From: Rhodoferax sp.
GTDB taxonomy: Bacteria > Pseudomonadota > Gammaproteobacteria > Burkholderiales > Burkholderiaceae_C
Assembly: GCF_028689305.1 (NCBI RefSeq)
Contig: NZ_JAQTWM010000019.1
Location: 13,395-50,307 of the forward strand
DNA length: 36,913 bases
Direction of reading: 5' to 3'
A program made the position numbers and the translations under genes. Every line of letters begins with the position of its first letter. Positions within the stretch are counted from its first letter, which is position 1. The notes under the pieces are model-generated. The model was not told where the DNA came from, did not search any database, and saw nothing but the letters and a program-made list of their open reading frames with translations. Below, in pieces: positions 12,793-35,039 of this stretch.

Positions 12793-12795
12793 ATC

Positions 12796-13758: not shown

Positions 13759-14388
13759 TCAGAGGCTGCTGACAAAGGCCTCGACTTCAGGGCGCAATCG
13801 GGGTGGTTTGCCCTTGGACACCGTTCCGATATTGACAAAACATACCGCTTGCTCGTGCGCCTGCAAGCCAAACAACGCCCGCAACTGTGGGCAGGCCAGC
13901 GCCTGCCCGCTGGTCAAACCGGTGCCCAAACCCATGGCGTGCGCTGACAACAAAACATTCTGGATGGCGCAGCCGAGAGACACCAGCCGCTCCGCGTCGC
14001 TGATTTCAAGCTCCCCCGAGCGCGCACGCGCGGCCTCTATGTCCGGGTGACTTCCGGCCAGACGAGCGATCGCCAGCATCAAAAAGGGGGCGCGGTGGGC
14101 TTTCTCACGCGCGTTCTCGACCTGCTCGGTGGTGGCCTGCGGGTCCCGATCCGTCAGCGCCAGACCAAACACCGACGCCAAAACCTCGCGCTTGTCCCCC
14201 GGAACAATGACGAAACGCCAGGGCAGCAGTTGCCCATGGTCTGGTGCCGCCGCCGCTGCATCCAAAATGGTCTGCAATTGTGCCGGACTGGGACCGGGTG
14301 CCACCAACCGTCTGGGTGCCACATGCTGGCGGGAATGAATCAACGCCCTGGCAAATTCAGACATTTCATTGCCGACGGGTAAATTCAT
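13759..14388 (-). CDS. Nitroreductase-family FMN oxidoreductase
   Basis: The 209-residue protein has nitroreductase landmarks: RQHVAPRRLVAPGPS (FMN-binding Arg), LDAAAAAPDHGQLLPWRFVIVPG, SLGCAIQNVLLSAHAMGLGTGLTSG and VNIGTVSKGKPP. These proteins reduce substrates with NAD(P)H using FMN; the substrate here is unknown. The ATG at 14388 is preceded by AGGAG at good spacing; an in-frame ATG at 14490 would add Cys-rich residues from the preceding gene and is rejected. It follows the molybdoenzyme accessory cluster in the same direction with a 56-bp gap holding a hairpin without a U-tract, so it may or may not be co-transcribed. Confidence 0.88.
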   Translation of the reverse strand: MNLPVGNEMSEFARALIHSRQHVAPRRLVAPGPSPAQLQTILDAAAAAPDHGQLLPWRFVIVPGDKREVLASVFGLALTDRDPQATTEQVENAREKAHRAPFLMLAIARLAGSHPDIEAARARSGELEISDAERLVSLGCAIQNVLLSAHAMGLGTGLTSGQALACPQLRALFGLQAHEQAVCFVNIGTVSKGKPPRLRPEVEAFVSSL

Positions 14389-14413
14389 TGGGTTCTCCTT
14401 GCATTGGACACAG

Positions 14414-14431
14414 CTGCTGCTTGAGCAGCAG
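14414..14431. other. Hairpin between accessory cluster and nitroreductase gene
   Basis: CTGCTGC-TTGA-GCAGCAG forms a 7-bp stem with a 4-nt loop. No U-tract follows on the minus strand, so it is not a standard intrinsic terminator. It may be a processing site or chance. Confidence 0.4.
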
Positions 14432-14444
14432 GGGCAAATCTGCC

Positions 14445-14849
14445 TTAATTGGGGTGCTGTATTGTGCCCGCCACAATACCAGCATGCCACTGGGCCGTAT
14501 CCTCCACCGCCTGGGCCAATGGCATGTTGGCCTCAACCCGATCCATGATCAGTCGCTGCAAGATGGCTCCGAGCATGGCCACGTTGTCAGCCATGTAGGG
14601 TTTGAGCTCGGTCAAAAACTGGCAGGTCGGCGGGTCGTACGCGTACGCCGACAAAAAATCATCGAATTTCTTGTCGGTCGCCAAGGCATGACACATGTCA
14701 TAAATCAGGTTGAAACTGCGTGTTTGCTGTGCCTCATCGCTGCCGCCCAGGTTGGATCGCACTTCTTCAGCCAGGTCACGCCGGAAATCAGTCAATGTGT
14801 ATTCGGCATGCGCCTTGACCACATCTTCAGGTGAGAACTCCCATTGCAT
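14445..14849 (-). CDS. Small protein of unknown function, last gene of the molybdoenzyme cluster
   Basis: I do not recognise the family. The 134-residue product is acidic and mostly helical by appearance, with no signal peptide, membrane segment or metal motif: it starts MQWEFSPEDVVKAHAEYTL and includes SFNLIYDMCHALATDKKFDDFL and MADNVAMLGAILQRLIMDRVE. A clear AAGGAG precedes the ATG. The start lies 24 bp after the ferredoxin stop, so it belongs to the same operon. A cytoplasmic accessory role in enzyme maturation is inferred from context only. Confidence 0.75.
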   Translation of the reverse strand: MQWEFSPEDVVKAHAEYTLTDFRRDLAEEVRSNLGGSDEAQQTRSFNLIYDMCHALATDKKFDDFLSAYAYDPPTCQFLTELKPYMADNVAMLGAILQRLIMDRVEANMPLAQAVEDTAQWHAGIVAGTIQHPN

Positions 14850-14873
14850 GTCAAAAACTCCTTGCGAAAATTG

Positions 14874-16022
14874 TCAGTCGCCATCCGGGCCAAAAATAGC
14901 CGCAAATGCGTCTTCATCATCACCACAGATCGTGCAGGTTGTCTGCGGCGTCGGGGACACAAAATACCGGTCACACCGCGAGCAACGTTGCTTGGCCCTG
15001 CTGATCAGGGTCATTGGCGCCAAACCCGGGCGGGCGTCGAAAGACACATGGGCATCGAGCACACGTGGCTGACACACCTCCAGACAGACCTCACAGGCCA
15101 CACATCGATCCGCCTGAAACGTCAGCGCCCAGTCGTGCGGGTTTTGCACAATCTCGATCGCACCCGTCGGACACACCCGAAAACAGGCTTCACAAAGTGT
15201 GCACCCCGACTGCAGGGTGAGTTGCATCGCCGGCAGGCCTTCATGCAACACCACGGTAAAAGCCTGCTCATCCTTGCGCTTGCAAACGATCTGCAACAAC
15301 TCACGTTGATCGGACACCACATAGGCACCGGCACGAATGGCCTTCTCCGGCACAGGGGCCGGCCTGGCGAGCTCTCCAGTGGCCACAAGCTTGGCCCCAC
15401 GGTGACTGAAAAAGCGTCGAAACAGCTGGCGCCGTGAACCCGCCGGGGCGCCGTGGCCAGCCGCCTTATTTGATGCCCCGGACAGGCCCGCATCTTGTAC
15501 CAGGACCGGCATCACCCAATCAGAGTCCAGCCCGCTGGCAGCGCTGTCGGCAAGGCTGGACTCTTTCAGCTGGTCAACGGCATCCAGATTGAGCCTGAGT
15601 TGGGCTTCACCGGTTTTGCCGTGGGAACAATCCGCGCAATGACCGCTACCATGCAAATTGACCGGAATCCGCCGCTTGGCCATGTAAGCCAGCCAGACCG
15701 CATCAACCGCCCCCAGGCAAGGCACAACAGCATCACCCTGGCAACCTGAGGGTCGGCATGCCAGGTGCCAGACCGGCTTTTTAATCGCTTCGCGCAACAA
15801 GTCGATCGGCTTGAAGTCCGGGCTACTCCACGCATTGGTGCGGCAGGCACTGATGCACAAACCACAACTTTGGCAGTGATCAGCCACCAGCGAAGCGCCC
15901 TGATCAGACAGGGTGATGGCGTCATGTGGACAGGCATCCGCACACCGCCGGCATTCACTGTAGCGGTAGCGATAACGGGTACAGCAATTGGCACGAAAGT
16001 CAGGCATCGGCAGGCATCCCAT
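14874..16022 (-). CDS. Multi-cluster 4Fe-4S ferredoxin-like accessory protein
   Basis: The 382-residue cytoplasmic protein contains, in order, an N-terminal Cys-rich ferredoxin unit (C24, C27, C31 and C50, C53, C56, C60), a middle domain with CRPSGCQGDAVVPCLGAVDA and a GHCADC motif, a C-terminal dicluster ferredoxin (C274-C284 and C307-C317, both CxxCxxCxxxC), and a final CxxC...CxxC knuckle (C347, C350, C363, C366) that may bind zinc. Similar middle domains occur in ferredoxins near other anaerobic oxidoreductases. The ATG at 16022 overlaps the previous stop (TGATG); a GTG at 16025 and an ATG at 16007 are alternatives. It may deliver electrons or clusters to the enzyme. Confidence 0.88.
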   Translation of the reverse strand: MGCLPMPDFRANCCTRYRYRYSECRRCADACPHDAITLSDQGASLVADHCQSCGLCISACRTNAWSSPDFKPIDLLREAIKKPVWHLACRPSGCQGDAVVPCLGAVDAVWLAYMAKRRIPVNLHGSGHCADCSHGKTGEAQLRLNLDAVDQLKESSLADSAASGLDSDWVMPVLVQDAGLSGASNKAAGHGAPAGSRRQLFRRFFSHRGAKLVATGELARPAPVPEKAIRAGAYVVSDQRELLQIVCKRKDEQAFTVVLHEGLPAMQLTLQSGCTLCEACFRVCPTGAIEIVQNPHDWALTFQADRCVACEVCLEVCQPRVLDAHVSFDARPGLAPMTLISRAKQRCSRCDRYFVSPTPQTTCTICGDDEDAFAAIFGPDGD

Positions 16023-16519
16023 CACGGTTTGGGTTGGCTGCCGGGCTTGCTGCTCAAAACCTGCAACGGGGTCCCGGTTTCACAGGTGTTGTGCGGGATC
16101 ACAAAGCTGATGCCGGCCGCGGTTCCGGAAGCCTTCGACGACGACACCTTCTCAAGTGAGCGCAACACAATTTCCCAAGCTACCGCCCCCCCCTTCACCG
16201 CATGAATCATCTTTCCCGGATGCTGCTTGGCCAGAATAGCGCCGATGCGCAACGCATTTTTGTCATCGTCCGCCACGACCACAACCGACGCCGTCGGGAT
16301 GATCGTCATCCCGGTGTGATAACTGAGGGCCTCTGCCAGCGGATGTTGACGCTGGCTGGCTACGCTGCGGGCATCAATGACGCAGCAAGGCGGCTCCTTC
16401 TTGAGCAGCTGATTCAACTCAACCGTGTCACGCAAGGCCAGTTCAGCGTGTACCGGCGCTGCACAAGTTGCGGCAGCCAGCATCACAGCCATCAGGATGT
16501 TGTCGGGTTTGATGTTCAT
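16022..16519 (-). CDS. Exported rhodanese-like protein lacking catalytic Cys
   Basis: The 165-residue protein has a signal peptide (to about VHA, residue 25) and a rhodanese-like core: CCVIDARSVASQRQHPLAEALS, then SVVVVADDDKNALRIGAILA and MIHAVKGGAVAWE. In active rhodaneses the loop after the fourth strand starts with Cys; here the equivalent is VADDD, so sulfurtransferase activity is unlikely. Other cysteines (C45, C46, C146) remain. It is the seventh gene of the molybdoenzyme cluster, with its stop overlapping the ferredoxin start. A periplasmic binding or assembly role is inferred. Confidence 0.75.
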   Translation of the reverse strand: MNIKPDNILMAVMLAAATCAAPVHAELALRDTVELNQLLKKEPPCCVIDARSVASQRQHPLAEALSYHTGMTIIPTASVVVVADDDKNALRIGAILAKQHPGKMIHAVKGGAVAWEIVLRSLEKVSSSKASGTAAGISFVIPHNTCETGTPLQVLSSKPGSQPKP

Positions 16520-16528
16520 CGGACACTT

Positions 16529-17215
16529 TCAGACCACGGGTTCAGTCAGGCGGGCATCATTGTCACGCGGCAACAACGCATGCCGGCGCAGATACAGCGC
16601 GGTTGGCAGCGCCAATTGACGAACTTGGCCATAGTTCACCCAGTCGCCAATTTGTGGTGTGCTGTCATGCAGCGGTGCCATCCAGAGCTTGTCCCCCAAC
16701 AGTTCGACCATGCCGGCACAAAGGTTCAGATCAGCATCATCACCCATGTCAGCCCGTACCAGCACGGTCTGAACACCGCGGTCCACCATGTCACCAATCC
16801 ATGAAGCAGCCCGACAGCCCGAAGGCACACCATCCGCCTGAAGCACCTCCCAGACAGGTTCACACAACGACGGTGTCACCACATTGAAGTCTTCATTGGA
16901 CACGGCGTCAAACGACCAGCTCACCGCTTGACGCTGCACAGGCACGTGCAAACCCACCCGGGCCGGGCCAAACCGCTGGATCAAGCGGGTGATGATGTCG
17001 CCATCGCGCAAAGCGGCTTCTCCGAGGAACACCCGGCTGGCCCCGGCAGTCAACAGTTGCACAGCGGTTGCCTCAGACTCTGCAGCCAACACCACTTGCG
17101 CCCGCACCATGGCCTGTGACATGGCCAGCAGTCTGGGTGTGAAATGCAAAAACGTGGGGGCAACTGGATTCACCTCGGCCCAGTTTTTTGCCAGACAACA
17201 GAACTGAACACTCAT
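16529..17215 (-). CDS. HisA-like (beta/alpha)8-barrel protein of unknown function
   Basis: The 228-residue protein resembles phosphoribosyl-isomerase HisA in its middle: AVQLLTAGASRVFLGEAALRD, then ITRLIQRFGPARVGLHVPVQ, and GDMVDRGVQTVLVRADMGDD. The catalytic Asp residues and phosphate-binding Gly motifs of true HisA are not convincingly present, and there are no other his genes nearby. It overlaps the previous gene by ATGA and lies inside the molybdoenzyme cluster. I infer a recruited barrel with a binding or maturation role; sequence alone cannot show which. The fold assignment is by eye. Confidence 0.65.
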   Translation of the reverse strand: MSVQFCCLAKNWAEVNPVAPTFLHFTPRLLAMSQAMVRAQVVLAAESEATAVQLLTAGASRVFLGEAALRDGDIITRLIQRFGPARVGLHVPVQRQAVSWSFDAVSNEDFNVVTPSLCEPVWEVLQADGVPSGCRAASWIGDMVDRGVQTVLVRADMGDDADLNLCAGMVELLGDKLWMAPLHDSTPQIGDWVNYGQVRQLALPTALYLRRHALLPRDNDARLTEPVV

Positions 17216-17661
17216 GGCGCGGCCCGCGAGTATTCAAACCTGGGGTAAACAAAAGGGTACATGGGGCAATCCGCATCAGATGCCAGCCCGACCAGCATCG
17301 GACGCAAATCTTCCAACGTGCCGTAGATTGACTCAATCCTGACACCCATGTAAGAAGGCCGATATTTGCCCAGCGCCATCATGGCGTCGTCAAGCATCAG
17401 CAGCGCACCTTCCTGATTCTGGTTTTGTGTGAAAAACAGCGCCAGGGTGGCAAACGCCAGCGCCTGCAACAGTTCTGCCTCCGGATCTTTGGTACCCAGG
17501 GGACTGTTTCGGATCAAACGTGCCCAACGCTCGTTGAGCCAATCGTGCAACTGCCCCAGTTGATTGTTATCCCAAAGCTTGGCCACCTCACCCCAATCCA
17601 GCTCGGAAAGCACCTGGCGATCTGGCGGCAAAATGGGTTGTGCATGGAGATCCAGCAACAT
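17212..17661 (-). CDS. Helical protein of unknown function in the molybdoenzyme cluster
   Basis: The 149-residue protein is not recognised. It starts MLLDLHAQPILPPDRQVLSE and contains repeated helix-like segments (VAKLWDNNQLGQLHDWLNERW; AELLQALAFATLALFFTQNQ; GALLMLDDAMMALGKYRPS), with some TPR-like character. No signal peptide or metal motif is visible. The ATG at 17661 is chosen because GAGGA lies 9 nt before it; a TTG at 17676 overlapping the chaperone stop is the alternative. Its 3' end overlaps the HisA-like gene. A cytoplasmic scaffold or chaperone role is a guess from context. Confidence 0.7.
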   Translation of the reverse strand: MLLDLHAQPILPPDRQVLSELDWGEVAKLWDNNQLGQLHDWLNERWARLIRNSPLGTKDPEAELLQALAFATLALFFTQNQNQEGALLMLDDAMMALGKYRPSYMGVRIESIYGTLEDLRPMLVGLASDADCPMYPFVYPRFEYSRAAP

Positions 17662-17672
17662 GATCTGATTCC

Positions 17673-18527
17673 TCAAAATGACAGGTCCTGCACGGCCCTG
17701 ATCGGGATGACGCGGGCCTTGTCTGCCGGTTGCAGGCGTTCAGTGAGGCCAGACGGACACTCACCACAAACCGGCTCATCGGGATTGAACTCCAGCTTGA
17801 TTTCTGACTTGGGCACTTCCAGTTGCCCACGATCCAGATCCTCCAGCCGCGTCAAACCCATGGCCGCGATTTCCTCTGCGGCAAACCCGCCCAGGAAACG
17901 GGCCATCCCCCGGTAAAACGAATGATTGGCGGCACGTTCAATCAACCCGCTGTAACCTCGGACCCAACGTCCCAGGTGCAAGGTCCAGAATCGCTTGATG
18001 TCCTTGTCCAACTTCTGATAAAGCTGTATTTCACCGTCTTCGAGCACAACCGCAGAGCGCTCCAGCAATTCGGCCACAAACATCAATTCCATACCGAGCT
18101 GATCCGCAAAGACGTCAAAACGGCCTTTGACCGGCTCAAACCCGAGACGTTGATAAAACTGAACCACCTGATAGTGCGGCTCCTGCTTGAAACGCCCTGT
18201 CAACCGCACCGATTCAACCGGCGGAAATCCGCCTGAAGAGGCAAACAAGGTCGCATACTCGCAAGCTAGGGCCTCGGTGAGCGCCGGCAACGTTGTCGCC
18301 AGAAAATCATCATCAAACACCACATTCAGTGCACGGAGCGAGGCCAATAGGCCTGGCTCACGCAGCGCCGACAAAAAGGCGGCTGAAGGCTCCTCAACAA
18401 AAGCCCCCGCCAACATGCGATACAAACTTGCCCGAGCCAGGCATTCTTCACGCCGTTGTATCGGGTCAAGAGGAGCTTGCACAACGGTATCTTCCCTGTC
18501 CTCTAATTCAAAAGTGGCTGCCAGCAT
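17673..18527 (-). CDS. TorD/DmsD-family molybdoenzyme chaperone
   Basis: The 284-residue protein matches the TorD-like all-helical family: ECLARASLYRMLAGAFVEEPS at the start, LACEYATLFASSGGFPPVESV (the E-Y-x-x-L-F element) and FDVFADQLGMELMFVAELL, HLGRWVRGYSGLIERAANHSFYRGMARFL. Such chaperones bind the Tat signal of the catalytic subunit and help insert the molybdenum cofactor. A C-terminal EPVCGECPSG segment is an addition I do not recognise in canonical TorD. ATG 18527 has AGGAG at 5-nt spacing; an ATG at 18554 is upstream of that site. It directly follows the catalytic gene but after a terminator-like hairpin. Confidence 0.88.
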   Translation of the reverse strand: MLAATFELEDREDTVVQAPLDPIQRREECLARASLYRMLAGAFVEEPSAAFLSALREPGLLASLRALNVVFDDDFLATTLPALTEALACEYATLFASSGGFPPVESVRLTGRFKQEPHYQVVQFYQRLGFEPVKGRFDVFADQLGMELMFVAELLERSAVVLEDGEIQLYQKLDKDIKRFWTLHLGRWVRGYSGLIERAANHSFYRGMARFLGGFAAEEIAAMGLTRLEDLDRGQLEVPKSEIKLEFNPDEPVCGECPSGLTERLQPADKARVIPIRAVQDLSF

Positions 18528-18538
18528 GTGGTCTCCTG

Positions 18539-18572
18539 AAAAAAGCCGATCCACACTCTCATGCGGATCGGC
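18539..18572 (-). terminator. Terminator-like hairpin between catalytic and chaperone genes
   Basis: On the minus strand GCCGATCC and GGATCGGC (8-bp arms at 18565-18572 and 18545-18552, 12-nt loop) are followed by six U residues (A run 18539-18544). The Shine-Dalgarno of the chaperone gene comes right after the U-tract. It looks like an intrinsic terminator that could attenuate transcription from the structural into the accessory genes. Confidence 0.7.
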
Positions 18573-18623
18573 AAATCGCTGTTAACGAAAAGAAAACACG
18601 GGGTTTACCAACCCTGAGACCAG

Positions 18624-21263
18624 TCAGTGGCCACCGCTGGCCTTGTGTTTGACACTCTCCGGACCACCCCAGGCAGCCATTTCTGGATGCATCTTGCGAT
18701 GCAGGTCACCGGTATAGGCGTAACGCATGGTCTCCTTGAATGCCGCCACATGTTTGTCCCAATGGCCCACACTGTCGCCGTATTTGTCATTCGGACCCGC
18801 CTTGGTGACCTTGACCACGGTGTCGTACCAGCCCTGTGAGCCGCCAATCGGGTCGGCGACCACCGGGATGATATTGTTGGGGTGGACACCTTTGTCATCC
18901 CACCAGACGTTGTTCAGGTCGGGATCGTCCTGGCCGTGGCTGGCATCCCCCTTGCCGGCCTTGAGCTTCAGGGTGGCCAGACGGCCATACTCCCAATGCC
19001 CGAACCCGGTGGAGATCGAAATCACCTTGGGATGGATGCCCTCGGTGACATAAGCCTTGGTCACCAGGTGGCCCACGGCGCTTTCCACGCGCACCAGGTC
19101 GCCGGTCTTCACGCCCAGTTTGGCGGCGGTCTCGGGGTTCATCCAGGCCGGGTTGCTGTGGGCAATTTCAGCCAGCCACTTCACGGCCGCAGTGCGCGAC
19201 TGTTTCATCACGTTGAGTTTGAAAGTCGAGAGGATCATCTCGTCGTCCTTCATGGTCTCGTGCCAGGGGATGCGCTTGAACGTGGGCATGGGGTTGAAGC
19301 CGTATTCGGCCCACTGGTCCACGCGCACGTTGATGAGCCGGTTGCCAGTGGGAAAACCCACGTAGTTCTTGCCGTCTCGCTTGACGCCGATGGCCTTGCC
19401 GTTCTTGGTGATGATGCCGGCCTTGTCCACGGTGGCACCGGCCATGTCCGCAGCGGAGAGCTCCTTCTTGTACAGCCCGTACTCGGCCTGGATCTCGCGG
19501 CCGGTCTTGTCCGACACCTTGCCGGTCTTGGGGTTGAGCTTGCCATAAATGGGCCAGACGCCATGCTTCTTCAGGAAATTCAGGCCGCCGGCTTCCTTCA
19601 GGCCGGGCACGTTGTCGAAGTGGTGGCGCATGTAGTCCTCGCCATCCTTGAAGTTCCAGAACTGCTTCATGCCACGCTTGCCGTCCGGATCCAGTTTATG
19701 GATGATGTCGCGCAGCATGACACGGTTTTCGCGCGACTCGCCCAGCGACTTGTGCACGGGCTGGCGAATGCCCAGCCAGGGCCACAGCGAATTGGGCATC
19801 GACTCGGGTTCCCAGCGCTCCAAGTAGGGACAGTCCGGCAGGATCAGGTCGGCCATGGCCGTTTCCTCGCCCATGAACGGGCTCATCGACACCAGATACG
19901 GAATCAGCTTCTCGTCCTTGAACAGCTTGCCCCACACCGCCATGGAGCCCGGGTTGGTATAGACCGGGTTGTCCTGGTAGGTGAAGTACACGTTGATCTT
20001 CTGCTTGCCCTCGGCAATCCAGAACGGCACCAGATGGCTGACCTTGTGCGCGGCCAGCGGATAGTCTGGCGGATGCGAGAGGTACGAATCCTTGGCCGGT
20101 TTGCCCGGCTCGGGCGAGGGCTGCGGCCAGCCCATGCCGCGCGGCAGGCAGTAGCCGCCCTTCTTTTCGATGTTGCCGGTCATGATCGGCAGCATCATGC
20201 AGGCCTTCTCGTTGTACGAGCCGTACAGGTGCTTGGCCGGTCCCCGGTAGGTGAACAGTGTGGCCGGCTTGGTGGTGGCGAACTCGCGTGCGATGCGTTC
20301 AATGGTTTCAGCAGGCACACCTGAAATCTTCGAGGCCCACTCCGGCGTGTACTGCTTGTAGTGCGCCTTCAACTCGGCCACGGTGACATTGGTCCAGTTG
20401 TTGATGAAGTCACTGTCCTGCAGGTCTTCGCTCAGGATGACGTTGCCCATGGCCAGGGCCACGGCACCGTCGGTGGCCGGGTGCACCGGAATCCATTCGT
20501 CCGAGAAGCCGGCCGTGTTGGACAGCCGCACGTCGAACGTGACGATCTTCATCTGGTTATCGATGCGACCTTCCGTCACCCGCTGCGACAACGGGTTATG
20601 GAAATAGGCGGCCTCCAGCACGTTCGAGCCAAAGTTCAGCACGTACTTGGCATTGGCGAAGTCGGGCGTCTCGATGTCCGGCCCCCAGGTGGGTTCCATG
20701 CCCACCTTCTTGGACGACTCGCACACCGAGGTGTGGTTCACCACCGTGGCCGAGCCCAGCGTCTTCATGAAGCGGTCCAGCGTGCCGCCGGTGCGGTTGC
20801 GCCCATACTTCATCATGATGGTGTTGGGGTCTTCCTTGATGGCGGCATCGAGTTTTTGCACCAGCTCGGCCAGGGCCTCGTCCCAGGTGATGCGTTTCCA
20901 TTTGCCTTCACCCCGGGCGCCGACGCGCTTGAGCGGGTACAGGATGCGGTCCGGGTCGTAGCTGTACCACATGCCCGAGTTACCTTTGGCGCACAGGCGA
21001 CCACGGGTGGAGACGTGCTCCGGGTTACCTTCGAGCTTGACCACGCGGTCATTTTCCAGATAGGCAATGGCTCCGTCCTGGATATTGCACACGTGGCAAC
21101 CGGTCGGCACGGCCTTGCGCTCGGCGGCGGTCACCGGACCAATGTCCTTGCCACCCAGGTCGTTTTCCATCGCGTTGAGCAAGCGCGGCGCAGCCGCCGC
21201 GACCGCACCGGTGCTGGCGCTAACCTCAAGGAAAGTTCGACGCGATACTTTGGGTATTTTCAT
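18624..21263 (-). CDS. Periplasmic molybdopterin oxidoreductase catalytic subunit (Psr/Phs/Ttr-like)
   Basis: The 879-residue protein starts with a Tat signal (SRRTFLEVSAS, residues 7-17), so it is exported folded with cofactor. The Fe-S region reads C56-x2-C59-x3-D63-x27-C91: Asp occupies the third ligand position of the normal four-Cys motif. NHTSVCESSKK follows, with C181 the likely molybdenum ligand, as in polysulfide and thiosulfate reductases. A C-terminal molydop-binding domain is seen (NPETAAKLGVKTGDLVRVESAVG). It is the third gene of a B-C-A operon with an Fe-S subunit and NrfD anchor, the order used by TtrBCA. Length is near PsrA/PhsA and shorter than TtrA. The natural substrate is not identifiable; sulfur or chalcogen oxyanions are plausible. 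Confidence 0.93.
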   Translation of the reverse strand: MKIPKVSRRTFLEVSASTGAVAAAAPRLLNAMENDLGGKDIGPVTAAERKAVPTGCHVCNIQDGAIAYLENDRVVKLEGNPEHVSTRGRLCAKGNSGMWYSYDPDRILYPLKRVGARGEGKWKRITWDEALAELVQKLDAAIKEDPNTIMMKYGRNRTGGTLDRFMKTLGSATVVNHTSVCESSKKVGMEPTWGPDIETPDFANAKYVLNFGSNVLEAAYFHNPLSQRVTEGRIDNQMKIVTFDVRLSNTAGFSDEWIPVHPATDGAVALAMGNVILSEDLQDSDFINNWTNVTVAELKAHYKQYTPEWASKISGVPAETIERIAREFATTKPATLFTYRGPAKHLYGSYNEKACMMLPIMTGNIEKKGGYCLPRGMGWPQPSPEPGKPAKDSYLSHPPDYPLAAHKVSHLVPFWIAEGKQKINVYFTYQDNPVYTNPGSMAVWGKLFKDEKLIPYLVSMSPFMGEETAMADLILPDCPYLERWEPESMPNSLWPWLGIRQPVHKSLGESRENRVMLRDIIHKLDPDGKRGMKQFWNFKDGEDYMRHHFDNVPGLKEAGGLNFLKKHGVWPIYGKLNPKTGKVSDKTGREIQAEYGLYKKELSAADMAGATVDKAGIITKNGKAIGVKRDGKNYVGFPTGNRLINVRVDQWAEYGFNPMPTFKRIPWHETMKDDEMILSTFKLNVMKQSRTAAVKWLAEIAHSNPAWMNPETAAKLGVKTGDLVRVESAVGHLVTKAYVTEGIHPKVISISTGFGHWEYGRLATLKLKAGKGDASHGQDDPDLNNVWWDDKGVHPNNIIPVVADPIGGSQGWYDTVVKVTKAGPNDKYGDSVGHWDKHVAAFKETMRYAYTGDLHRKMHPEMAAWGGPESVKHKASGGH

Positions 21264-21284
21264 GTTGTGTCTCCTGGAATAGGT

Positions 21285-22142
21285 TCAATACATCGTTTGC
21301 ATTTGCTGGGGTGCCATCAGGATCGCATACCGCAAGGCGGCACTGCCCACCAGGATCAACAACGCTGCCAGTGACAGGGTGCTTTTGCGAACACCGGCTG
21401 GGGCCAGCAACAGCGCGACTGGCGCCGCAATCCCCCCCAGAATGCCTGCGCCCACAAAAATCACACCCATGGTGCCGGTGGTCAGGATCGCAAAGGTCAA
21501 CTCTTCGGCTGAGCCACCATAGTTGGTGGTTCCCAGAATGGAAATCAGCACCACGCCAACGGCAGCGGTGGACCACAACATGTATTCACGCAGTACCTTT
21601 TGGGCTGCCTCGTTGGCACCGGCCAGCAGTGAGCCCACCGCCGAGCCGGAGGCAACCGCCAGGGCCACAAACAGCACTGGCATCACCGGCGTGTTCCAGA
21701 CTGGCCGCGACTGGTGCACGGCCAGGTCATAACCGGTGTAGATCGGCAAACCCAGCGCCAGTGCCGCAGTGATCAGGGCCAGCAACTTGCCCTGTTTCTC
21801 GTCACCCTTGCGCAAGGCCAGGATGTAGAGCACCGAGCAAACTCCAAACGCCGTGATGTTCAGCGCCCCCCAAGCCAGCGGCGAGGTGAAGTGCATGTAC
21901 ATCGGGTTGAGTGTGTTGAGAAAACGCAGTGGCTGCGACAAGTCGGCAATCAGCAGCGCACCGCCCACACCCAGCAACACCACCGAGATGTAGGCGGCCT
22001 TTTCGCGCAAAGGCCGCAGCGCAGGCTGAATCCAGGAGCCATAAGACAGGAAGGACAGCCCCGCCAGAATGCCCACCACAAAGAAGTAGATGGCGTAGGC
22101 TGAATGCCACGACACATCGTGGAACCAAACATATTCACCCAT
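21285..22142 (-). CDS. NrfD/PsrC-type membrane quinone-interacting subunit
   Basis: The 285-residue integral membrane protein has about eight hydrophobic helices, beginning with WHSAYAIYFFVVGILAGLSFLSYG and including ALLIADLSQPLRFLNTLNPMYMHFTSPLAWGALNITAFG, the conserved loop of NrfD proteins near the quinone site. It anchors the Fe-S and catalytic subunits and exchanges electrons with the quinone pool. It lies 12 bp after the Fe-S subunit gene and 21 bp before the catalytic gene, each with a good Shine-Dalgarno sequence. Confidence 0.93.
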   Translation of the reverse strand: MGEYVWFHDVSWHSAYAIYFFVVGILAGLSFLSYGSWIQPALRPLREKAAYISVVLLGVGGALLIADLSQPLRFLNTLNPMYMHFTSPLAWGALNITAFGVCSVLYILALRKGDEKQGKLLALITAALALGLPIYTGYDLAVHQSRPVWNTPVMPVLFVALAVASGSAVGSLLAGANEAAQKVLREYMLWSTAAVGVVLISILGTTNYGGSAEELTFAILTTGTMGVIFVGAGILGGIAAPVALLLAPAGVRKSTLSLAALLILVGSAALRYAILMAPQQMQTMY

Positions 22143-22154
22143 GATGTGTGCTCC

Positions 22155-22853
22155 TTAAATGTTGAAGTGAAGTTTGAATGCGGAACGCTCTTGTTCCATC
22201 ACTTCAATAGGCTTGTTGCCGTCACGCCCAAACTCGGTCTGGTTGCGATCCGCGCCGATGTAAAACACGTGCGGCTTGGTACCCTGCTCTGGACGCAACA
22301 CCTGCGTCGGGTTTTTGGCAATCAGGTACGACACCTCGCTGTTGGGATCGTTGATGTCGCCAAACACGCGCGATCGGCCAATACAGGTCTGCACACAAGC
22401 TGGCACCAGGTTCTGCGTCACACGATGGAAGCAGAAGGTGCATTTGTCCACCACGTTGGTGATGGGCGTGTAGGTGCGGTGCGACGGCAGCATGAAGCGC
22501 GCGTTGTAGGGACAGGCCGCCATGCAGCTGCGACACCCGATGCAGCGTTCGTAACGCTGCAGCACAAAACCACCGTCTTCGACGACAAAAGTGGCCTCCA
22601 CCGGGCAATTGCGCACACACGGCGGATCCTCGCAGTGGTTGCACAGGCGCGGCAGAAATTTGCGCGACACGTTGGGGTACTTGCCGGTCACCTTGTAAGG
22701 CACCCAGGTGCGGTTCACTCCCAAAGGAGTGTCATATTCGGCCTTGCAGGCCACCTGGCAAGCCATACAGCCGATGCACCTGCGGGTGTCGACCACCATG
22801 GCAAACCGGCGTTTGCGGCCTGCCGGTGACGAGACATTAGTTGCTTCACTCAT
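22155..22853 (-). CDS. Four-cluster [4Fe-4S] electron-transfer subunit (PsrB/TtrB-like)
   Basis: The 232-residue protein has sixteen Cys in four ferredoxin-type groups: C26-C36, C71-C83, C104-C114 and C138-C157, the arrangement of DmsB/PsrB/TtrB subunits. There is no signal peptide, so it would be carried out with the Tat-exported catalytic subunit. The ATG at 22853 has AGGAG 8 nt upstream and falls about 50 nt after the predicted sigma-54 start site; the longer frame to 22949 would begin upstream of that start site and is rejected. It is the first gene of the cluster. Confidence 0.93.
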   Translation of the reverse strand: MSEATNVSSPAGRKRRFAMVVDTRRCIGCMACQVACKAEYDTPLGVNRTWVPYKVTGKYPNVSRKFLPRLCNHCEDPPCVRNCPVEATFVVEDGGFVLQRYERCIGCRSCMAACPYNARFMLPSHRTYTPITNVVDKCTFCFHRVTQNLVPACVQTCIGRSRVFGDINDPNSEVSYLIAKNPTQVLRPEQGTKPHVFYIGADRNQTEFGRDGNKPIEVMEQERSAFKLHFNI

Positions 22854-22914
22854 CGATGTGTCTCCTGGAGAGGATGTGGTTCTTGTTTCACGCACGGTAT
22901 CCACATCACTCAGC

Positions 22915-22929
22915 GCAACATGTGTGCCA
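22915..22929 (-). promoter_or_regulatory. Sigma-54 (-24/-12) promoter of the molybdoenzyme operon
   Basis: Read on the minus strand the site is TGGCAC-ACATG-TTGC, an exact match to the core consensus TGGCAC-N5-TTGC. Transcription would start near 22903, giving a leader of about 50 nt before the Fe-S subunit ATG. An NtrC-type activator is encoded divergently. Confidence 0.85.
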
Positions 22930-23005
22930 GTTTTCGGACTTGGCCCCAAAACCAGTCTCCCATTGGGAAAACACCACAGACTCCCACAACACAGGCGCCC
23001 TCACC

Positions 23006-23065
23006 GTTACCATAACGTAACAATTTAAGGGTTATCACCAAGAGAAAATGTTACGAATTTGTTAT
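23006..23065. promoter_or_regulatory. Candidate upstream activator sites for the NtrC-type regulator
   Basis: GTTAC-CATAAC-GTAAC at 23006-23021 is a perfect 5-6-5 inverted repeat centred about 110 bp upstream of the predicted sigma-54 start. A second, degenerate copy, GTTAC-GAATTT-GTTAT, lies at 23050-23065, 44 bp further on. Distance and pairing fit enhancer sites for an NtrC-family activator. The second copy is close to the start of the divergent sensor operon, so autoregulation is possible. Confidence 0.55.
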
Positions 23066-23100
23066 CTACTACGCCCTCTTTTCTTGAATGAAACAAGCCC

Positions 23101-23970
23101 ATGCAACGCAGAACCCTGGTGGAATGGGGTGCTGCCTGGGGCCTGCTGCAAGGCGGCGTCCAGGCACAAACACTCCCCAAAAATGACACAACCTCACTGC
23201 GCATCGGACTCACGGCAGTGATCCTGGCCGACCAGGCCGCGTTCCTGACACGCTGGAGTGACTACCTGGGCGCACGCATGGGCCTGCCGGTGGTGTTTGT
23301 CGCCCGCGAGTCGTACCAGAACATTCTGGATCTGCTGTTCTCTGACCAACTGGATGCCGCCTGGATTTGCGGCTACCCCTACATCCTGCATCAGAGCAAG
23401 CTGCAATTGCTGGCCACCCCGCTGTTCAATGGCAAGCCGTTTTACCAGTCCTACCTGATTGGCCGGTCGAGGAATCCGCCGGAATTGACGGGCTGGGGTG
23501 ACCTGAAACAGCGGGTTCTGGCTTACTCCGACCCCTTGTCCAATTCAGGTTGGTTGGTGGCTCAGGCGCAAATGCGTGCCGCCGGGCTCAAGGCCAGTGA
23601 CCTGCGCCGGACCTTCTTTGCCCATGGTCACCGCAATGTGGCTGAAGCCGTGGCCTCCGGCCTGGCGCAAGCTGGTTGCATCGACGGTTACGTGTGGGAC
23701 ACCATGCAACTGCAAAAAATGGCCGCTGTGGCCCACACCAGCGTGATCTGGCGTTCCGACTGGTATGCCTTTCCCCCCATCGTTGCCAGGCTCAATGACA
23801 GCCATCCCGCGTTGGCTGAGTTGGGAGCTGCCTTGCAAAACATGCCCAACGACTCTCAAGGTTTGAGTTTGCTCAAGGCATTGAATTTGAGCGGTTTTGC
23901 CAAACCCGATGCCAGCCTGTTTGAGCCGATCAAGACCCTGGCCGCCAGTGTCGGCGCCGTGCGGACCTGA
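23101..23970 (+). CDS. PhnD-like periplasmic binding protein of a three-component sensor
   Basis: The 289-residue protein has an N-terminal export signal (to about QAQT, residue 24) and a PhnD-type periplasmic domain: LRIGLTAVILADQAAFLTRW, FVARESYQNILDLLFSDQLDAAWICGYPYI, then VLAYSDPLSNSGWLVAQAQ and SGLAQAGCIDGYVWD. The same fold serves as sensor in AioX/ArxX and TtrS. C90 in the AWICGYPY segment and C193 could contact a thiophilic ligand, but this is inference. The gene is 8 bp upstream of the kinase and divergent from the molybdoenzyme operon, so it most likely senses the enzyme's substrate. Confidence 0.85.
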   Translation: MQRRTLVEWGAAWGLLQGGVQAQTLPKNDTTSLRIGLTAVILADQAAFLTRWSDYLGARMGLPVVFVARESYQNILDLLFSDQLDAAWICGYPYILHQSKLQLLATPLFNGKPFYQSYLIGRSRNPPELTGWGDLKQRVLAYSDPLSNSGWLVAQAQMRAAGLKASDLRRTFFAHGHRNVAEAVASGLAQAGCIDGYVWDTMQLQKMAAVAHTSVIWRSDWYAFPPIVARLNDSHPALAELGAALQNMPNDSQGLSLLKALNLSGFAKPDASLFEPIKTLAASVGAVRT

Positions 23971-23978
23971 CCACCACC

Positions 23979-25433
23979 ATGTTGCCGCGTTTACCCTACC
24001 GCATTCAGATACCGCTGGGTCTGGTGCTGGCTGTCACGCTTTCGGTTTTGCTCGTCAGCGTGGTGGCAGCACAAATCTCGGCTCGTTCAGCGCGCCTGGA
24101 GATTGTGAGCACTGTGCAGCGGGTGATCGACCTGCTGGTGGCACAAGGCAAGCCGCTGCTGGCGCAGGACGACACCTGGCGCGCTTTCACGCTGCTGCGC
24201 AACACCGCGGCACTGTTACCTCAGACCGAAAAGGGACAGTCGCGTGCCGCCCTGCTGGATGCCCAGGGGCGATTTCTGGCCGGCTCGGACCCGATGCGCC
24301 TGCCCACCGGTGAGCAGGCGCTGGGGGTGTTGATCAATGGCCGTTTGCTACCCTCCGTCAGTGCCGCCACCCGCCCCAGAACCCTGACCACGCCGGACGG
24401 CGGCATGGCATTGATTGAGCCGATCCGCAGCGACGACGACCAGGTCATTGGTTTTGTGTTTGCCGAAGTGGATGCCGCTGCCTTTGCGCCCGACTGGGCA
24501 GCCTTGTCCACCCCCGCCCTGATTGGTGCCGCACTGGCCATCATCGTGCTGGTGCCCATGGGCTGGTTGCTGGGGCGGCGCATGGCACAACCCATTGCCC
24601 AGACAGCCAACTGCATTGCCCAGATTGGTCACACCGATGCCGCCCAACTGCAGGCACTGATTCCTCATGTGCAGGACCCCGAGCTCAGCCGCATTGCCGG
24701 CGCTGTCCGGCAACTTCTGATCGAAACCTCAGTAGCCCAGGCCAACGCGCAGCGCGCCCTCTCGGCTGAGCGATTGGCGGCCGTGGGCCGCATCACAGCC
24801 GCCGTAGCGCATGAGATCAACAACCCATTGGCCGGCCTGATCACCGCTACCCGCACCTTGCGCCTGCACGGTGATTCGCCTGACGCACGTGAGCGAAGCC
24901 TGGACCTGATTGAACGCGGCCTGCAACAAATTCGCACCATGACCACCGCGCTGCTGCCACAAGCCAAGGTGGAGGACCGTTGCCTGAGCCTAGACGACTT
25001 TACCGATGTTCTGACGCTGGCGCGCGCCACCGCCTCGCAGCACTTTGTCAGCATCAGCTCCGAGCTGGATCAGCAGGCTGAGCTGTGTGTGCCCTCCACC
25101 GTATTCCGGCAGGTCATGCTCAACCTGCTGCTCAATGCGATCAAGGCCGCGGGGCAGTCAGGCCAGGTGCACGCGCTTCTGCAGACCAACACCGGCAAGG
25201 TCACCTTCATGCTGTGCAACACCGGAGACCATTTGTCCAACGACGACCTGCAACAACGCCTGCAGGCCGAAGACAGCAATGACCCCCATGGTTTTGGTCT
25301 GTGGATCTGCCAGGAATTTGCCGTGCGGTACGGCGGAGGGTTTTCTGCCGCCGCGCCTGCCGACATCCCCTCACCCTTTGCCAGCTGTTTGAGCTTTTGG
25401 CTTCCTAACCTTGTGCGCCATGTCGAAAAATAA
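23979..25433 (+). CDS. Membrane sensor histidine kinase
   Basis: The 484-residue protein has two membrane helices (about 11-31 and 178-198) enclosing a 145-residue periplasmic domain, then a HAMP-like segment, HisKA with phosphoacceptor H278 in VAHEINNPLAG, and an HATPase_c domain (N-box QVMLNLLLNAIKA, G-box HGFGLWICQEF). It should receive the signal from the PhnD-like protein and phosphorylate the NtrC-type regulator. Its stop at 25431-25433 overlaps the regulator start by 14 nt. Confidence 0.93.
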   Translation: MLPRLPYRIQIPLGLVLAVTLSVLLVSVVAAQISARSARLEIVSTVQRVIDLLVAQGKPLLAQDDTWRAFTLLRNTAALLPQTEKGQSRAALLDAQGRFLAGSDPMRLPTGEQALGVLINGRLLPSVSAATRPRTLTTPDGGMALIEPIRSDDDQVIGFVFAEVDAAAFAPDWAALSTPALIGAALAIIVLVPMGWLLGRRMAQPIAQTANCIAQIGHTDAAQLQALIPHVQDPELSRIAGAVRQLLIETSVAQANAQRALSAERLAAVGRITAAVAHEINNPLAGLITATRTLRLHGDSPDARERSLDLIERGLQQIRTMTTALLPQAKVEDRCLSLDDFTDVLTLARATASQHFVSISSELDQQAELCVPSTVFRQVMLNLLLNAIKAAGQSGQVHALLQTNTGKVTFMLCNTGDHLSNDDLQQRLQAEDSNDPHGFGLWICQEFAVRYGGGFSAAAPADIPSPFASCLSFWLPNLVRHVEK

Positions 25434-26742
25434 TCTGTTGCTGATTGAAGATGATCTGATCCTGGGGGAATCGTTGGTGCAGCGCTTTGAACTGGAAGGT
25501 ATCAAAGTGGTCTGGCTACGCCGTCTGGCTGAAGCGCAACTCCAGATGAACCAGCCCTGGGGCGCGGTGGTCAGCGACGTCCGGCTGCCCGATGGCCTGG
25601 CAACAGAGTGGTTTGTGGAATTGCCGCTTGCGAACCGCATGTTGCCGTGGTTTTTTCTGACTGGTTACGGCAGTGTGAACGACGCCGTCCGCGCCATCCA
25701 GGCCGGCGCGCGTGAATACCTGACCAAACCCTTTGACATTGAAAAACTGGTGGCCCTGGTGCTCGATACCCTGGCGACCAGCACCCGGGCACCGGCTGAC
25801 GCGGTGCTGGGTATCTCGCCTGCCATGCGCCGGATTGAGGAACTGGTTCACAAACTGGCGCGCCAAAAAACATCGGTCCTCATCAGCGGCGAGTCCGGGG
25901 TTGGCAAGGAGGTGGTGGCGCAGCTGATCCACAACCTGGATCCGCGCAGCAAAAAAGGGAGTTTTGTCCCGGTCAACTGTGCCGCGGTGCCCGAGTCCAT
26001 GATGGAAGCAGAATTTTTCGGTTACGAAAAAGGGGCGTTCACCGGGTCACAACGGGCACACAAGGGGTTTATTGAACGCGCCGATGGCGGCACCCTGTTT
26101 CTCGACGAAATCGGCGACCTGCCGGCCAGCATGCAGGCCAAGCTGTTACGCGTGCTGCAAGAGCGGTGTTTCTTCCGGCTGGGCTCCGAACGCACCACCC
26201 ACAGTGACTTTCGCATCATCGCCGCCACCAACCGCGACTTGTACGCCGACATGCTGGCGGGCAAGTTCCGCGAGGACCTGTTTTACCGGCTGGCGGTGAT
26301 CCGCATTGAAATCCCACCGCTGCGCGAACGCCCGGAAGACATCCGCTGGCTGACCGAGCTGATCCTGCAGCAAATCACCACGGAGCAAGGCGTCCCCATT
26401 GCGATGTCTGAACTGTTCCTGCGTGACCTGATGGCACGCAACTGGCGCGGCAACATCAGGGAATTACGTGCCCATCTGGAACAGGCCGTGGTCATGAGTG
26501 AGGGCGGCGTCCTGGACAAACCCATGAATGACAGCCCCAGCGCCACAGCGGGGACGGTCTTTGCCGCGGCACCAGATCAAGCGCTGCCATCACTCCACGC
26601 CATCGTCGAAGATGCCGAGCGCACCCACATCCGCAAAGCCCTATCCCAATGTGAAGGCAGCGTTGGCAAAACCGCCGACGTGCTGGGCATCTCACGCAAA
26701 ACACTGTGGGAAAAGATGAAACGCTTGGCCATCAATGCCTGA
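25420..26742 (+). CDS. NtrC-family sigma-54-dependent response regulator
   Basis: The 440-residue protein has a receiver domain (phosphoacceptor D53 in VVSDVRLPDG, T81, K103), an AAA+ domain with Walker A GESGVGKE (157-164), the sigma-54 loop GAFTGS (205-210) and Walker B GTLFLDEI, and a C-terminal Fis-type HTH (KTADVLGISRKTLWEKMKR). It should activate the -24/-12 promoter facing the Fe-S subunit gene. AioR is a described regulator of the same architecture next to an AioX-type sensor. ATG 25420 is used; TTG 25411 is an alternative. Confidence 0.95.
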   Translation: MSKNNLLLIEDDLILGESLVQRFELEGIKVVWLRRLAEAQLQMNQPWGAVVSDVRLPDGLATEWFVELPLANRMLPWFFLTGYGSVNDAVRAIQAGAREYLTKPFDIEKLVALVLDTLATSTRAPADAVLGISPAMRRIEELVHKLARQKTSVLISGESGVGKEVVAQLIHNLDPRSKKGSFVPVNCAAVPESMMEAEFFGYEKGAFTGSQRAHKGFIERADGGTLFLDEIGDLPASMQAKLLRVLQERCFFRLGSERTTHSDFRIIAATNRDLYADMLAGKFREDLFYRLAVIRIEIPPLRERPEDIRWLTELILQQITTEQGVPIAMSELFLRDLMARNWRGNIRELRAHLEQAVVMSEGGVLDKPMNDSPSATAGTVFAAAPDQALPSLHAIVEDAERTHIRKALSQCEGSVGKTADVLGISRKTLWEKMKRLAINA

Positions 26743-28469: not shown

Positions 28470-28737
28470 CAAACGCCCCTTCCTTGGTCCCGATTCATTT
28501 TGTGCCAATCGAAAATAAGATGCAATGCTGCTGGGCAATGATTCGCTCACCATCGGCACCTTCGCCTATTTGGTCAAAATTCTGGCGCGAGCTGCGTCTC
28601 TTGCCCACCAGCCGCGACCAGGTGGTGCCATGGCTGGCAACGGTCCAATCAAGCCCAGGAAGCTTGGCCATCCGTCCACAAAAGTGCGGTGCCATGCAAA
28701 ATGCACACCACGCACCACCATCCACTGAGGTACCCGA
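28470..28737. other. Intergenic region between permease and dioxygenase genes
   Basis: The 268-bp divergent region contains short open frames on both strands, but none has a Shine-Dalgarno sequence, a recognisable domain or composition that separates it from chance. Promoters for both neighbours should lie here, but I see no convincing match. Confidence 0.4.
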
Positions 28738-35017: not shown

Positions 35018-35039
35018 CCTCTTGCCGAGCCGACCTGTC

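Follow-up and report, generated by a model that had tools for sequence, protein, structure and literature searches.

A Psr-like molybdoenzyme operon under AioXSR-type control is a candidate overlooked arsenic-metabolising system in Rhodoferax and other environmental bacteria

Among the described arsenic redox systems, aio and arx operons that share one control module (a sensor protein X, a kinase S and a regulator R) oxidise arsenite, and ArrXSR modules are thought to regulate arsenate reductases; the pocket of the sensor AioX comprises Tyr88, Cys106, Tyr131, Ser161, Ser163, His192 and Asp210, with arsenite linked to Cys106, as described in PMC5908839. A control module of this kind was found in a stretch of 36,913 nucleotides, here termed the window, from the draft genome of a Rhodoferax sp. 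(contig NZ_JAQTWM010000019.1; 3.83 Mb, 187 contigs, 86.5% complete). In the island under study, nine genes on the minus strand run in the order B, C, A, TorD-like, helical, HisA-like, rhodanese-like, ferredoxin and small, and X-S-R diverge from them on the plus strand. A check of the open reading frames (ORFs) located all twelve genes where a first-pass annotation of this DNA had placed them, with 4-base overlaps between TorD and helical, helical and HisA-like, and rhodanese and ferredoxin genes. The catalytic subunit A belongs to none of the arsenic-enzyme families compared, making the island a strong candidate for an overlooked arsenic-metabolising system. The best single guess, with a probability of about 0.55, is an arsenite-induced, quinone-linked arsenic oxidoreductase, exported by twin-arginine translocation (Tat), that would convert arsenite to arsenate and deliver the electrons to the quinone pool; that A acts on an arsenic species of some kind is probable.

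A single scan of the GTDB genome collection yielded 68 loci: 60 of a beta/gamma-type, with A ~74-95% identical to that of the window, and eight of an alpha-type (56-57%). Loci are not separate genomes throughout, as L062 and L073 are pieces of one metagenome-assembled genome (MAG). Beta/gamma-type hosts are mainly Betaproteobacteria, with some gamma, one Bradyrhizobium and one Phycisphaerae MAG, and cultured hosts include Thauera aminoaromatica S2, Aromatoleum toluclasticum, A. buckelii and Hydrogenophaga taeniospiralis. The MAGs named Phycisphaerae (L030, A 87%) and Bradyrhizobium (L049, A 81%) may represent lateral transfer or misbinning. Among the 35 beta/gamma-type loci whose flanks are long at either side, 31 have all twelve genes, which argues that the grouping is not due to chance. 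Over all 60 loci, 35 hold the complete set; 31 of these keep the order and strands of the window, and the remaining four have their strongest S or R match at another place in the locus. Where the flank suffices, B (56/56), C (56/56), TorD (50/50), the helical (48/48), HisA-like (47/47) and ferredoxin (45/45) genes are always found, and the rhodanese-like gene (44/47), the small gene (42/45), X (51/53), S (47/48) and R (42/43) nearly so, counting four S matches and one X match that lie more than 9 kb from A. The accessory genes are thus conserved beside A across genomes, as the annotation had expected. The same gene set is carried on a complete plasmid of Azoarcus sp. KH32C, adjoining arsC, arsD, arsA and acr3; a ferredoxin search of plasmids returned five records, of which this one covered at least 80%.

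Seven of the eight alpha-type islands are long enough to read, the eighth (L064) ending after TorD; in these seven, B, C, A, TorD and the ferredoxin are retained. All seven contain glycosyltransferase-like, MgsA-like and small cytochrome-like genes, two Mrp-type ATPases and a HisA-like gene, and five of the seven have an exported rhodanese-like gene and a multihaem cytochrome; XSR sits at the island end in six loci and upstream of B in L074. Profile comparison between the beta and alpha proteins (hhalign) gave E values of 1e-38 for the ferredoxin, 4e-32 for TorD, 1.1e-11 for the rhodanese-like protein and 1.8e-6 (probability 90) for the HisA-like protein, and found no counterpart of the helical and small proteins among the alpha-type island proteins. 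The genes common to both architectures, namely BCA, TorD, the ferredoxin, the HisA-like gene and XSR, thus form the core, usually joined by the rhodanese-like gene. The accessory genes had been proposed to form a module specific to this enzyme: their conservation beside A agrees with this, and the homology of the ferredoxin to ArxB2 (see below) and the absence of helical and small genes from alpha-type islands do not. The two Mrp/NBP35-type ATPases stand with the glycosyltransferase-like and MgsA-like genes and the enzyme at L075:13487-19461 and in other alpha-type loci, and an Mrp gene also lies 3' of related A genes in Rhodococcus RHA1 and Natrinema.

X (23101-23970, plus strand) is a periplasmic binding protein of the AioX type with a Phosphonate-bd domain. 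In phmmer comparisons with solved structures it matches AioX of NT-26 (6esv) at an E value of 7e-57, ArrX at 3e-17 and HtxB, PtxB and PhnD at 8e-11 to 5e-6, placing it with the AioX/ArxX arsenic-oxyanion sensors above other PhnD-like proteins. The published pocket numbering fits the NT-26 plasmid-encoded protein exactly, and the X of the window possesses all seven pocket residues, as Y72, C90, Y115, S147, S149, H177 and D195. These residues are conserved across 63 island X, apart from Thr for Ser163 in two and a gap at Cys106 in one. Six of the 30 listed plasmid relatives of X were examined and all adjoin aio (five) or arx (one); a further plasmid region, L095, examined for its A, is an arx cluster. 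S (23979-25433, plus strand; HisKA, HATPase_c) is an AioS-like sensor histidine kinase whose gene overlaps R (25411-26742, ATG 25420, plus strand; Response_reg, Sigma54_activat, HTH_8). R is an NtrC-type sigma-54 activator with receiver, AAA+ and helix-turn-helix (HTH) domains and, with a predicted operator and RpoN promoter before the operon, falls with AioR/ArxR. The layout had been described as combining features of TtrSR-TtrBCA and AioXSR; the AioXSR part holds, and the Ttr part does not, since the regulators are AioXSR/ArxXSR-like with a complete pocket. Ttr-type control is ruled out by the AioX/AioR-like nature of X and R. From the open substrate list first offered (sulfur, selenium or another chalcogen or metalloid species), arsenic emerges as the likely signal, given AioXSR-type control with an arsenite pocket, and judging from these genes the operon is very probably under arsenic control.

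A phylogenetic tree was built from 41 X, among them that of the window, 20 of the 55 fetched beta-type and seven alpha-type. The X of the window falls in a clade (support 100/100) made up of seven X from islands in Comamonadaceae together with the one from the aio cluster of Hydrogenophaga sp. BPS33, separate from the X of the same operon in Rhodocyclales, and the alpha-type X of L074 groups with NT-26 and Ensifer AioX (99/91). Compared with the aio set of BPS33, the S, R and X of the window show 51, 72 and 57% identity; with the KH32C set, which accompanies the same enzyme operon, they show 32, 48 and 40%. Because the aio set is the nearer of the two, the regulator module has been exchanged between aio and the island operon, an exchange that is hard to understand unless both respond to the same signal.

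A sigma-54 (-24/-12) box, TGGCACACATGTTGCG, lies upstream of B at 22914-22929 (minus strand) with one mismatch, and a box with at most two mismatches precedes B in 50 of 64 loci. The window contains 48 boxes of this quality versus 42.6 expected, so a single box is not significant, and as such boxes are not rare by chance, weight is placed on the conservation of the box. A palindrome with the consensus GTTAC-N6-GTAAC, GTTACCATAACGTAAC (23006-23021, strandless), lies 76 bp upstream of the box and is the only site in the window with at most one mismatch to the consensus. A palindrome of this quality precedes B in 58 of 64 loci, including six of the eight alpha-type, and others lie before Hydrogenophaga aio (no mismatch), Paraburkholderia aio (one), Sulfuricella arx (one) and an arr-like cluster of the source genome (none). 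The three exact copies in the source genome, one at the island and two before the arr-like A, are all in XSR-linked control regions. In 16 further genomes, chosen after the operator results across loci had been seen, 21 of 34 exact sites lie within 354 kb of fetched island loci; L014 and L041, among the 16 loci, have one-mismatch sites only. Extra exact copies lie some kb from the island at G011:C4:263916-264282 and L053:21387-21436, the latter near a second S/R-like pair.

Neither palindrome nor sigma-54 box was found in L039, a long-flank locus without detected X, S or R. In the alpha-type locus L064 (a Rhodobacteraceae MAG), the GTTAC palindrome before B is replaced at 6336-6351 by GTTCGGAAATCCGAAC, the identical 16 bases that precede aio of Rhodobacter sp. 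CZR27, and GTTC-N8-GAAC also stands before NT-26 aio and Cereibacter arx. Because L039 lacks both XSR and operator and L064 has the CZR27 aio-type palindrome, operator type follows regulator type. GTTAC-N6-GTAAC is predicted to be the operator bound by R. It could be argued that XSR was captured by chance and that the enzyme is unrelated to arsenic, as the XSR and A trees disagree, so that the module moves, X lies 9-11 kb from the A start in six alpha-type loci, and L039 shows no XSR. However, the module stays by the operon in 42/43 (R) to 51/53 (X) beta-type loci with enough flank, is still of the arsenic type after swaps, and has its predicted operator directly before B, making such a capture very improbable.

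A (18624-21263, minus strand) is a catalytic subunit of the molybdenum bis(pyranopterin guanine dinucleotide) (Mo-bisPGD) kind (Molybdopterin 3.5e-30), with a twin-arginine start, SRRTFLEV, that predicts Tat export. Its NCBIfam scores are all below cut-off: 347.1 of 694 bits for PhsA (NF012032), 178.5 of 1600 for ArrA, 144.6 of 1750 for TtrA (NF011567) and 41.6 of 359 for AioA (TIGR02693). For comparison, on the ArrA model the arr-like A of the source genome reaches 1041 bits and two named-plasmid ArxA reach 431-438. The best PDB match is Thermus 2vpw, named thiosulfate reductase (192.7 bits, phmmer). A tree of A comprised 45 rows, with a warning of long branches meeting; named PsrA, SrrA, SoeA and bSreA are not among the rows, and L108 and L086 (longest ORF probably not A), L065, L066, L083, L111, L112, L115, L120, and L105 and L116 (internal stop) lie outside it. 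PhsA (three rows), TtrA-like proteins (four rows, themselves at 1327-1389 bits on the TtrA model, under its cut-off of 1750), ArxA/ArrA (eight rows) and AioA fall into separate groups, each with 100/100 support and none including island A. The sister of island A is an unnamed group of eight proteins with 37-44% identity to it, and farther out lie L104/L106 (43-46% identical) and proteins of Thermomicrobium, Rhodococcus and Natrinema. The tree places A close to neither PhsA nor TtrA, in line with its initial description as an uncharacterised Psr-like subunit. Seemingly novel Cys-type lineages with PsrA/PhsA/SrrA-like matches are mentioned in PMC10100899.

In the alignment columns, the FS0 ligand positions of the A of the window are C56, C59, D63 and C91, and the Mo ligand is C181. 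The Mo-ligand cysteine is kept in all 53 beta-type and all eight alpha-type A, placing them among Cys-ligated Mo-bisPGD enzymes. The third FS0 cysteine position is Asp in 61/61 island A and Cys in PhsA, TtrA, ArxA/ArrA, AioA, L104/L106 and the Thermomicrobium group. AioA has Ser at the fourth FS0 position (2/2 rows), where it accompanies a high-potential [3Fe-4S] cluster; by analogy, the Asp hints at a similar role in island A, that of a high-potential cluster suited to oxidation. Among 12 aligned proteins of the unnamed sister group and kin (L104/L106 apart), Asp is present in ten and the Mo cysteine in none. These 12 relatives (L107, L109-L115, L117-L120), eight of which make up the sister group in the tree, are 30-44% identical to A, and some are without FS0 cysteines. 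In L128, a relative of the type lacking the Mo cysteine stands beside B, NrfD and multihaem-like cytochrome genes, an arrangement reminiscent of QrcB (179 of 440 bits).

The two partner subunits and the chaperone have clear family matches. B (22155-22853, minus strand) is an iron-sulfur electron-transfer subunit (Fer4_11 2.8e-22; best NCBIfam match TtrB, 213 bits versus a cut-off of 416), whose translation most likely starts at ATG 22853, preceded by AGGAG, rather than at TTG 22949, as far as which the frame is open. C (21285-22142, minus strand) is an NrfD/PsrC-type membrane quinone subunit (NrfD 2.2e-30) with hydrophobic segments throughout, and the TorD/NarJ-type chaperone (17673-18554, possible ATG 18527, minus strand) matches Nitrate_red_del at 2.8e-17 and TIGR03482 at 43 bits.

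The four-cluster ferredoxin (14874-16025, minus strand), with four Fer4 stretches and a C-terminal Cys4 motif, is a full-length homologue of ArxB2. Comparison with two ArxB2 gave an hhalign E value of 4e-34 over 346 columns and blastp values of 2e-13 and 3e-12, against 2.4e-7 over 98 columns for the control comparison with B; a protein of the source genome linked to formate dehydrogenase matched the ferredoxin of the window in short pieces of at most 33.5 bits and the alpha-type ferredoxin at 47.4. The operon thus contains an ArxB2-type ferredoxin, a feature of Arx systems; ArxB2 is described in PMC6549141 as apparently arx-specific, its role being unclear. The helical protein (17212-17676, possible ATG 17661, minus strand; DUF309 E 2.4e-3) has a DUF309-like fold in its AlphaFold2 model (mean predicted local distance difference test score, pLDDT, 85.4), the best fold match being 2ijq (DUF309; probability 1.00, template modelling (TM) scores 0.59/0.75, E 0.024). 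The HisA/HisF-like barrel protein (16529-17215, minus strand) belongs to a family with a His_biosynth match in 30/32 members; the protein of the window scores 23.3 bits over residues 47-153 (cut-off 23.6) and at most 20.1 bits on NCBIfam models, and these sub-threshold scores give no grounds for regarding it as a histidine-biosynthesis enzyme. The small all-helical protein (14445-14849, minus strand) has a confident model (pLDDT 94.6), no family match in Pfam or NCBIfam and no confident PDB fold match.

The rhodanese-like protein (16022-16519, minus strand) has a signal-like N-terminus. The protein of the window itself matches no rhodanese family, and Rhodanese is matched by 20 of 34 family members, which supports the fold. 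Its cysteines are at 19, 45, 46 and 146; with none between residues 47 and 145, it has no active-loop cysteine and so lacks the catalytic residue expected of an active sulfurtransferase, consistent with its earlier description as a dead exported rhodanese. D49, R51, G110, G111, P142 and C146 are invariant in 34 rows, two alpha-type included, Cys146 being part of a C-terminal motif, FVIPxNTCE, with the alpha-type counterpart IPxGLCE. This protein bears on the principal alternative to arsenite oxidation, namely that arsenite only induces the enzyme, whose substrate would be a sulfur or thio-arsenic species such as thioarsenate, thiosulfate or polysulfide, since arsenite encounters reduced sulfur in the form of thioarsenic; the rhodanese-like protein, exported and with a conserved cysteine, would then pass on or shield sulfur. 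The Psr/Phs-like character of A, with PhsA and Thermus 2vpw as its best matches, is in keeping with such a role, as are hosts whose names mark them as oxidisers of sulfur or thiosulfate (Sulfuricella, Hydrogenophilus thiooxidans) and the proposal in PMC6620896 that a Soe-like enzyme acts on arsenite or thioarsenate in Thioalkalivibrio. However, the PhsA score is half of the curated cut-off, A stands apart from PhsA in the tree, and the control module is of the arsenic type that governs arsenite oxidation in aio and arx operons (PMC5908839), so that action on sulfur or thio-arsenic species is considered unlikely.

Other arsenic genes were sought around the islands and in the host genomes. A tblastn search of the flanks with KH32C ars proteins, covering 69 loci, found a match to ArsC, ArsD, ArsA, ACR3 or the permease of the window in 16, among them L077, which supplied the queries, and L013, which has the permease only; ACR3 was found in ten loci and MoaA in 15. 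A set of 50 genomes, many of them incomplete MAGs, was assembled from the source genome and the genomes of 49 of the 68 loci. It contains 49 acr3 genes in 45 genomes, and acr3 lies near seven of the 49 island loci, against ~0.25 expected by our own estimate. The AioA model is passed in seven of the 50 genomes: by one full-length protein at 1288 bits, by five with best scores of 429-444, and by a partial piece (436 bits over 345 of 806 positions) that is probably a true AioA. That XSR serves a separate aio operon was rejected on this low count, in a set with many incomplete MAGs. Arr/Arx-type subunits are present in 13/50 genomes at E 1e-90 (the stricter E 1e-150, with 9/50, misses ArxA), AioA and Arr/Arx together in 15, and no Aio-, Arx- or Arr-type enzyme as an alternative target of the module was found in 35/50 host genomes, many of which are incomplete MAGs. 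AioA-like proteins of ~900 codons and 399-444 bits occur at G033:C10, G046:C8, G038:C13, G020:C74 and G035:C10 and C6 (L079, L080), and these low-scoring proteins possibly represent another AioA/IdrA branch.

The source genome has a second XSR-controlled cluster at G000:C168 (L136:7603-16145). It encodes TorD, a B subunit and an ArrA-like subunit that scores 1041 bits against a cut-off of 1600. Two exact GTTAC palindromes lie between its X and A, and no NrfD gene was seen before the contig end ~650 bases after TorD. The predicted operator shared with this arr-like cluster, the view of ArrXSR modules as regulators of arsenate reductases (PMC5908839) and the NrfD subunit, common in reductases, could all point to a respiratory reductase of arsenate (or antimonate) that works in the reductive direction with quinol. 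Against this, X is nearer AioX than the solved ArrX and shares a clade with aio X, many hosts belong to denitrifying genera, and an FS0 with Asp suggests a higher rather than a lower potential; a reductase is therefore judged improbable. A still less probable alternative is an antimonite oxidase, in which arsenite or antimonite would be sensed and Sb(III) oxidised with nitrate: PMC11521347 lists Azoarcus and Azospira among the bacteria that contribute to Sb(III) oxidation with nitrate and reports that aioA has been suggested for this reaction, yet that some carriers are incapable of it, implying unknown enzymes, whereas no Sb-specific gene was seen here.

Several observations weigh against arsenite oxidation by A under arsenic control. 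A lies in a Psr-like assemblage outside the ArxA/ArrA and AioA clades, Psr/Phs enzymes reduce sulfur compounds according to PMC10100899, joint support for the alpha and beta island A as one clade is weak (85/63), and with the nearest sister group lacking the Mo ligand the function of A is hard to infer by kinship. ArrX has the same pocket as AioX and binds arsenate (PMC5908839), so that the pocket alone does not fix the ligand, and the BPS33 aio X and L074 X were flagged as long rows of unsure placement in the X tree. The palindrome is no commoner than its reversed control, with three versus seven exact copies in the source genome and 34 versus 54 in the 16 further genomes, so that only the locations of sites are informative. 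It is absent before the four alpha-proteobacterial aio/arx operons compared (NT-26, Ensifer, CZR27 and Cereibacter), and the alpha-type locus L074 has neither it nor GTTC-N8-GAAC. Genes for ars functions lie near just 16 of 69 loci, many of them incomplete, and, with an arr-like cluster also present in the source genome, A could have a role outside As(III)/As(V) chemistry.

Arsenite oxidation is nevertheless preferred because aio and arx operons under the same switch perform it, the arsenite sensor is the closest relative of X, and many island hosts belong to genera known for denitrification. By homology with AioXSR, periplasmic arsenite would bind X through Cys90, X would activate the kinase S, and S would phosphorylate R, which would bind GTTAC-N6-GTAAC 76 bp upstream of the sigma-54 promoter and switch on the nine-gene operon. 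From family knowledge, the TorD-like chaperone would load Mo-bisPGD into A, and A carrying B would be exported by Tat and dock on the NrfD-type C. A would then oxidise an arsenic species, most likely arsenite to arsenate, and electrons would pass from FS0 through the B clusters and C to the quinone pool, in support of detoxification or of respiration with nitrate or oxygen. The ArxB2-like ferredoxin and the HisA-like and DUF309-like proteins may act in the cytoplasm, probably in maturation, whereas a periplasmic role is likely for the rhodanese-like protein, which is exported and has an invariant cysteine near its C-terminus.

More tentatively, the island may encode a respiratory arsenite oxidase that evolved independently of Aio and Arx and would rank as the third of its kind: a quinone-linked enzyme of Psr lineage, with an aspartate ligand at FS0, perhaps a [3Fe-4S] or high-potential cluster convergent with that of AioA, and its own two-architecture maturation module, which would consist of the ArxB2-like ferredoxin, the HisA-like barrel and the dead exported rhodanese. 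If so, many beta-proteobacteria and related bacteria would have no other recognised arsenotrophic enzyme. Surveys of arsenic redox genes target aioA, arxA and arrA; as none of these was found in 35 of 50 host genomes, the organisms concerned would be classed as incapable of arsenic respiration. The operator and sensor predict induction by arsenite, and the Asp-for-Cys FS0 ligand predicts a spectroscopic signature. No description of the island operon was found in the open full-text literature (PMC), a search that left most subscription papers and all bioRxiv preprints outside.

Around the island, a nitroreductase gene (13759-14490, minus strand) lies directly 3' of the operon and recurs at four other loci; it is 54% identical to one that adjoins the aio operon of Hydrogenophaga BPS33. 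At 11746-13734 (plus strand) lie two SoxH-related metallo-hydrolase genes in tandem, of the quinoprotein relay system type (sub-threshold), and a gene of this sort is present in 8/69 loci. Beyond R lie an ArsP_1-family permease of ambiguous substrate (27024-28559, minus strand), a chromate efflux gene scoring above cut-off (33488-34696, plus strand) and a cation diffusion facilitator (CDF) metal exporter (35001-35969, plus strand). The permease was not relied on as an arsenic gene, its NCBIfam matches being sub-threshold SO0444 and SaoE.

Compared with the arx island (arxB2ABCD with arxXSR; Sulfuricella denitrificans pSCD and Cereibacter azotoformans pORIO3), the system has in common an AioX-type XSR, TorD, NrfD, B, an ArxB2-type ferredoxin and the GTTAC palindrome, with one mismatch in Sulfuricella. 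It differs in that A lies outside the ArxA/ArrA clade, the order is B-C-A-D, the third FS0 Cys is Asp, and there are extra HisA-like, rhodanese-like, DUF309-like and small genes. With aioXSR-aioBA (Pseudorhizobium NT-26 and Hydrogenophaga sp. BPS33) it shares XSR with the full arsenite pocket and, in BPS33, the regulator lineage, the exact operator, the sigma-54 box and the nitroreductase neighbour. However, the aio catalytic subunit is unrelated beyond the superfamily, and where AioB is a Rieske protein the island has a [4Fe-4S] B plus an NrfD C. The arrXSR-arrAB systems, including the arr-like cluster of the source genome, likewise have XSR, TorD and the GTTAC palindrome, whereas the island A is in another clade and the arr-like cluster shows no NrfD before the contig end. 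TtrBCA-TtrSR has the same B-C-A order, and TtrB and TtrC are the best NCBIfam matches of B and C, below cut-off; A, however, reaches less than a tenth of the TtrA cut-off, and the regulator is of the AioXSR type. PsrABC and PhsABC share the Cys Mo ligand, an NrfD-type C as in PsrC, and the best NCBIfam (PhsA) and PDB (Thermus 2vpw) matches of A, from which the island enzyme is set apart by its sub-threshold score, its branch apart from PhsA in a tree without PsrA, Asp63, arsenic-type control and its accessory genes.

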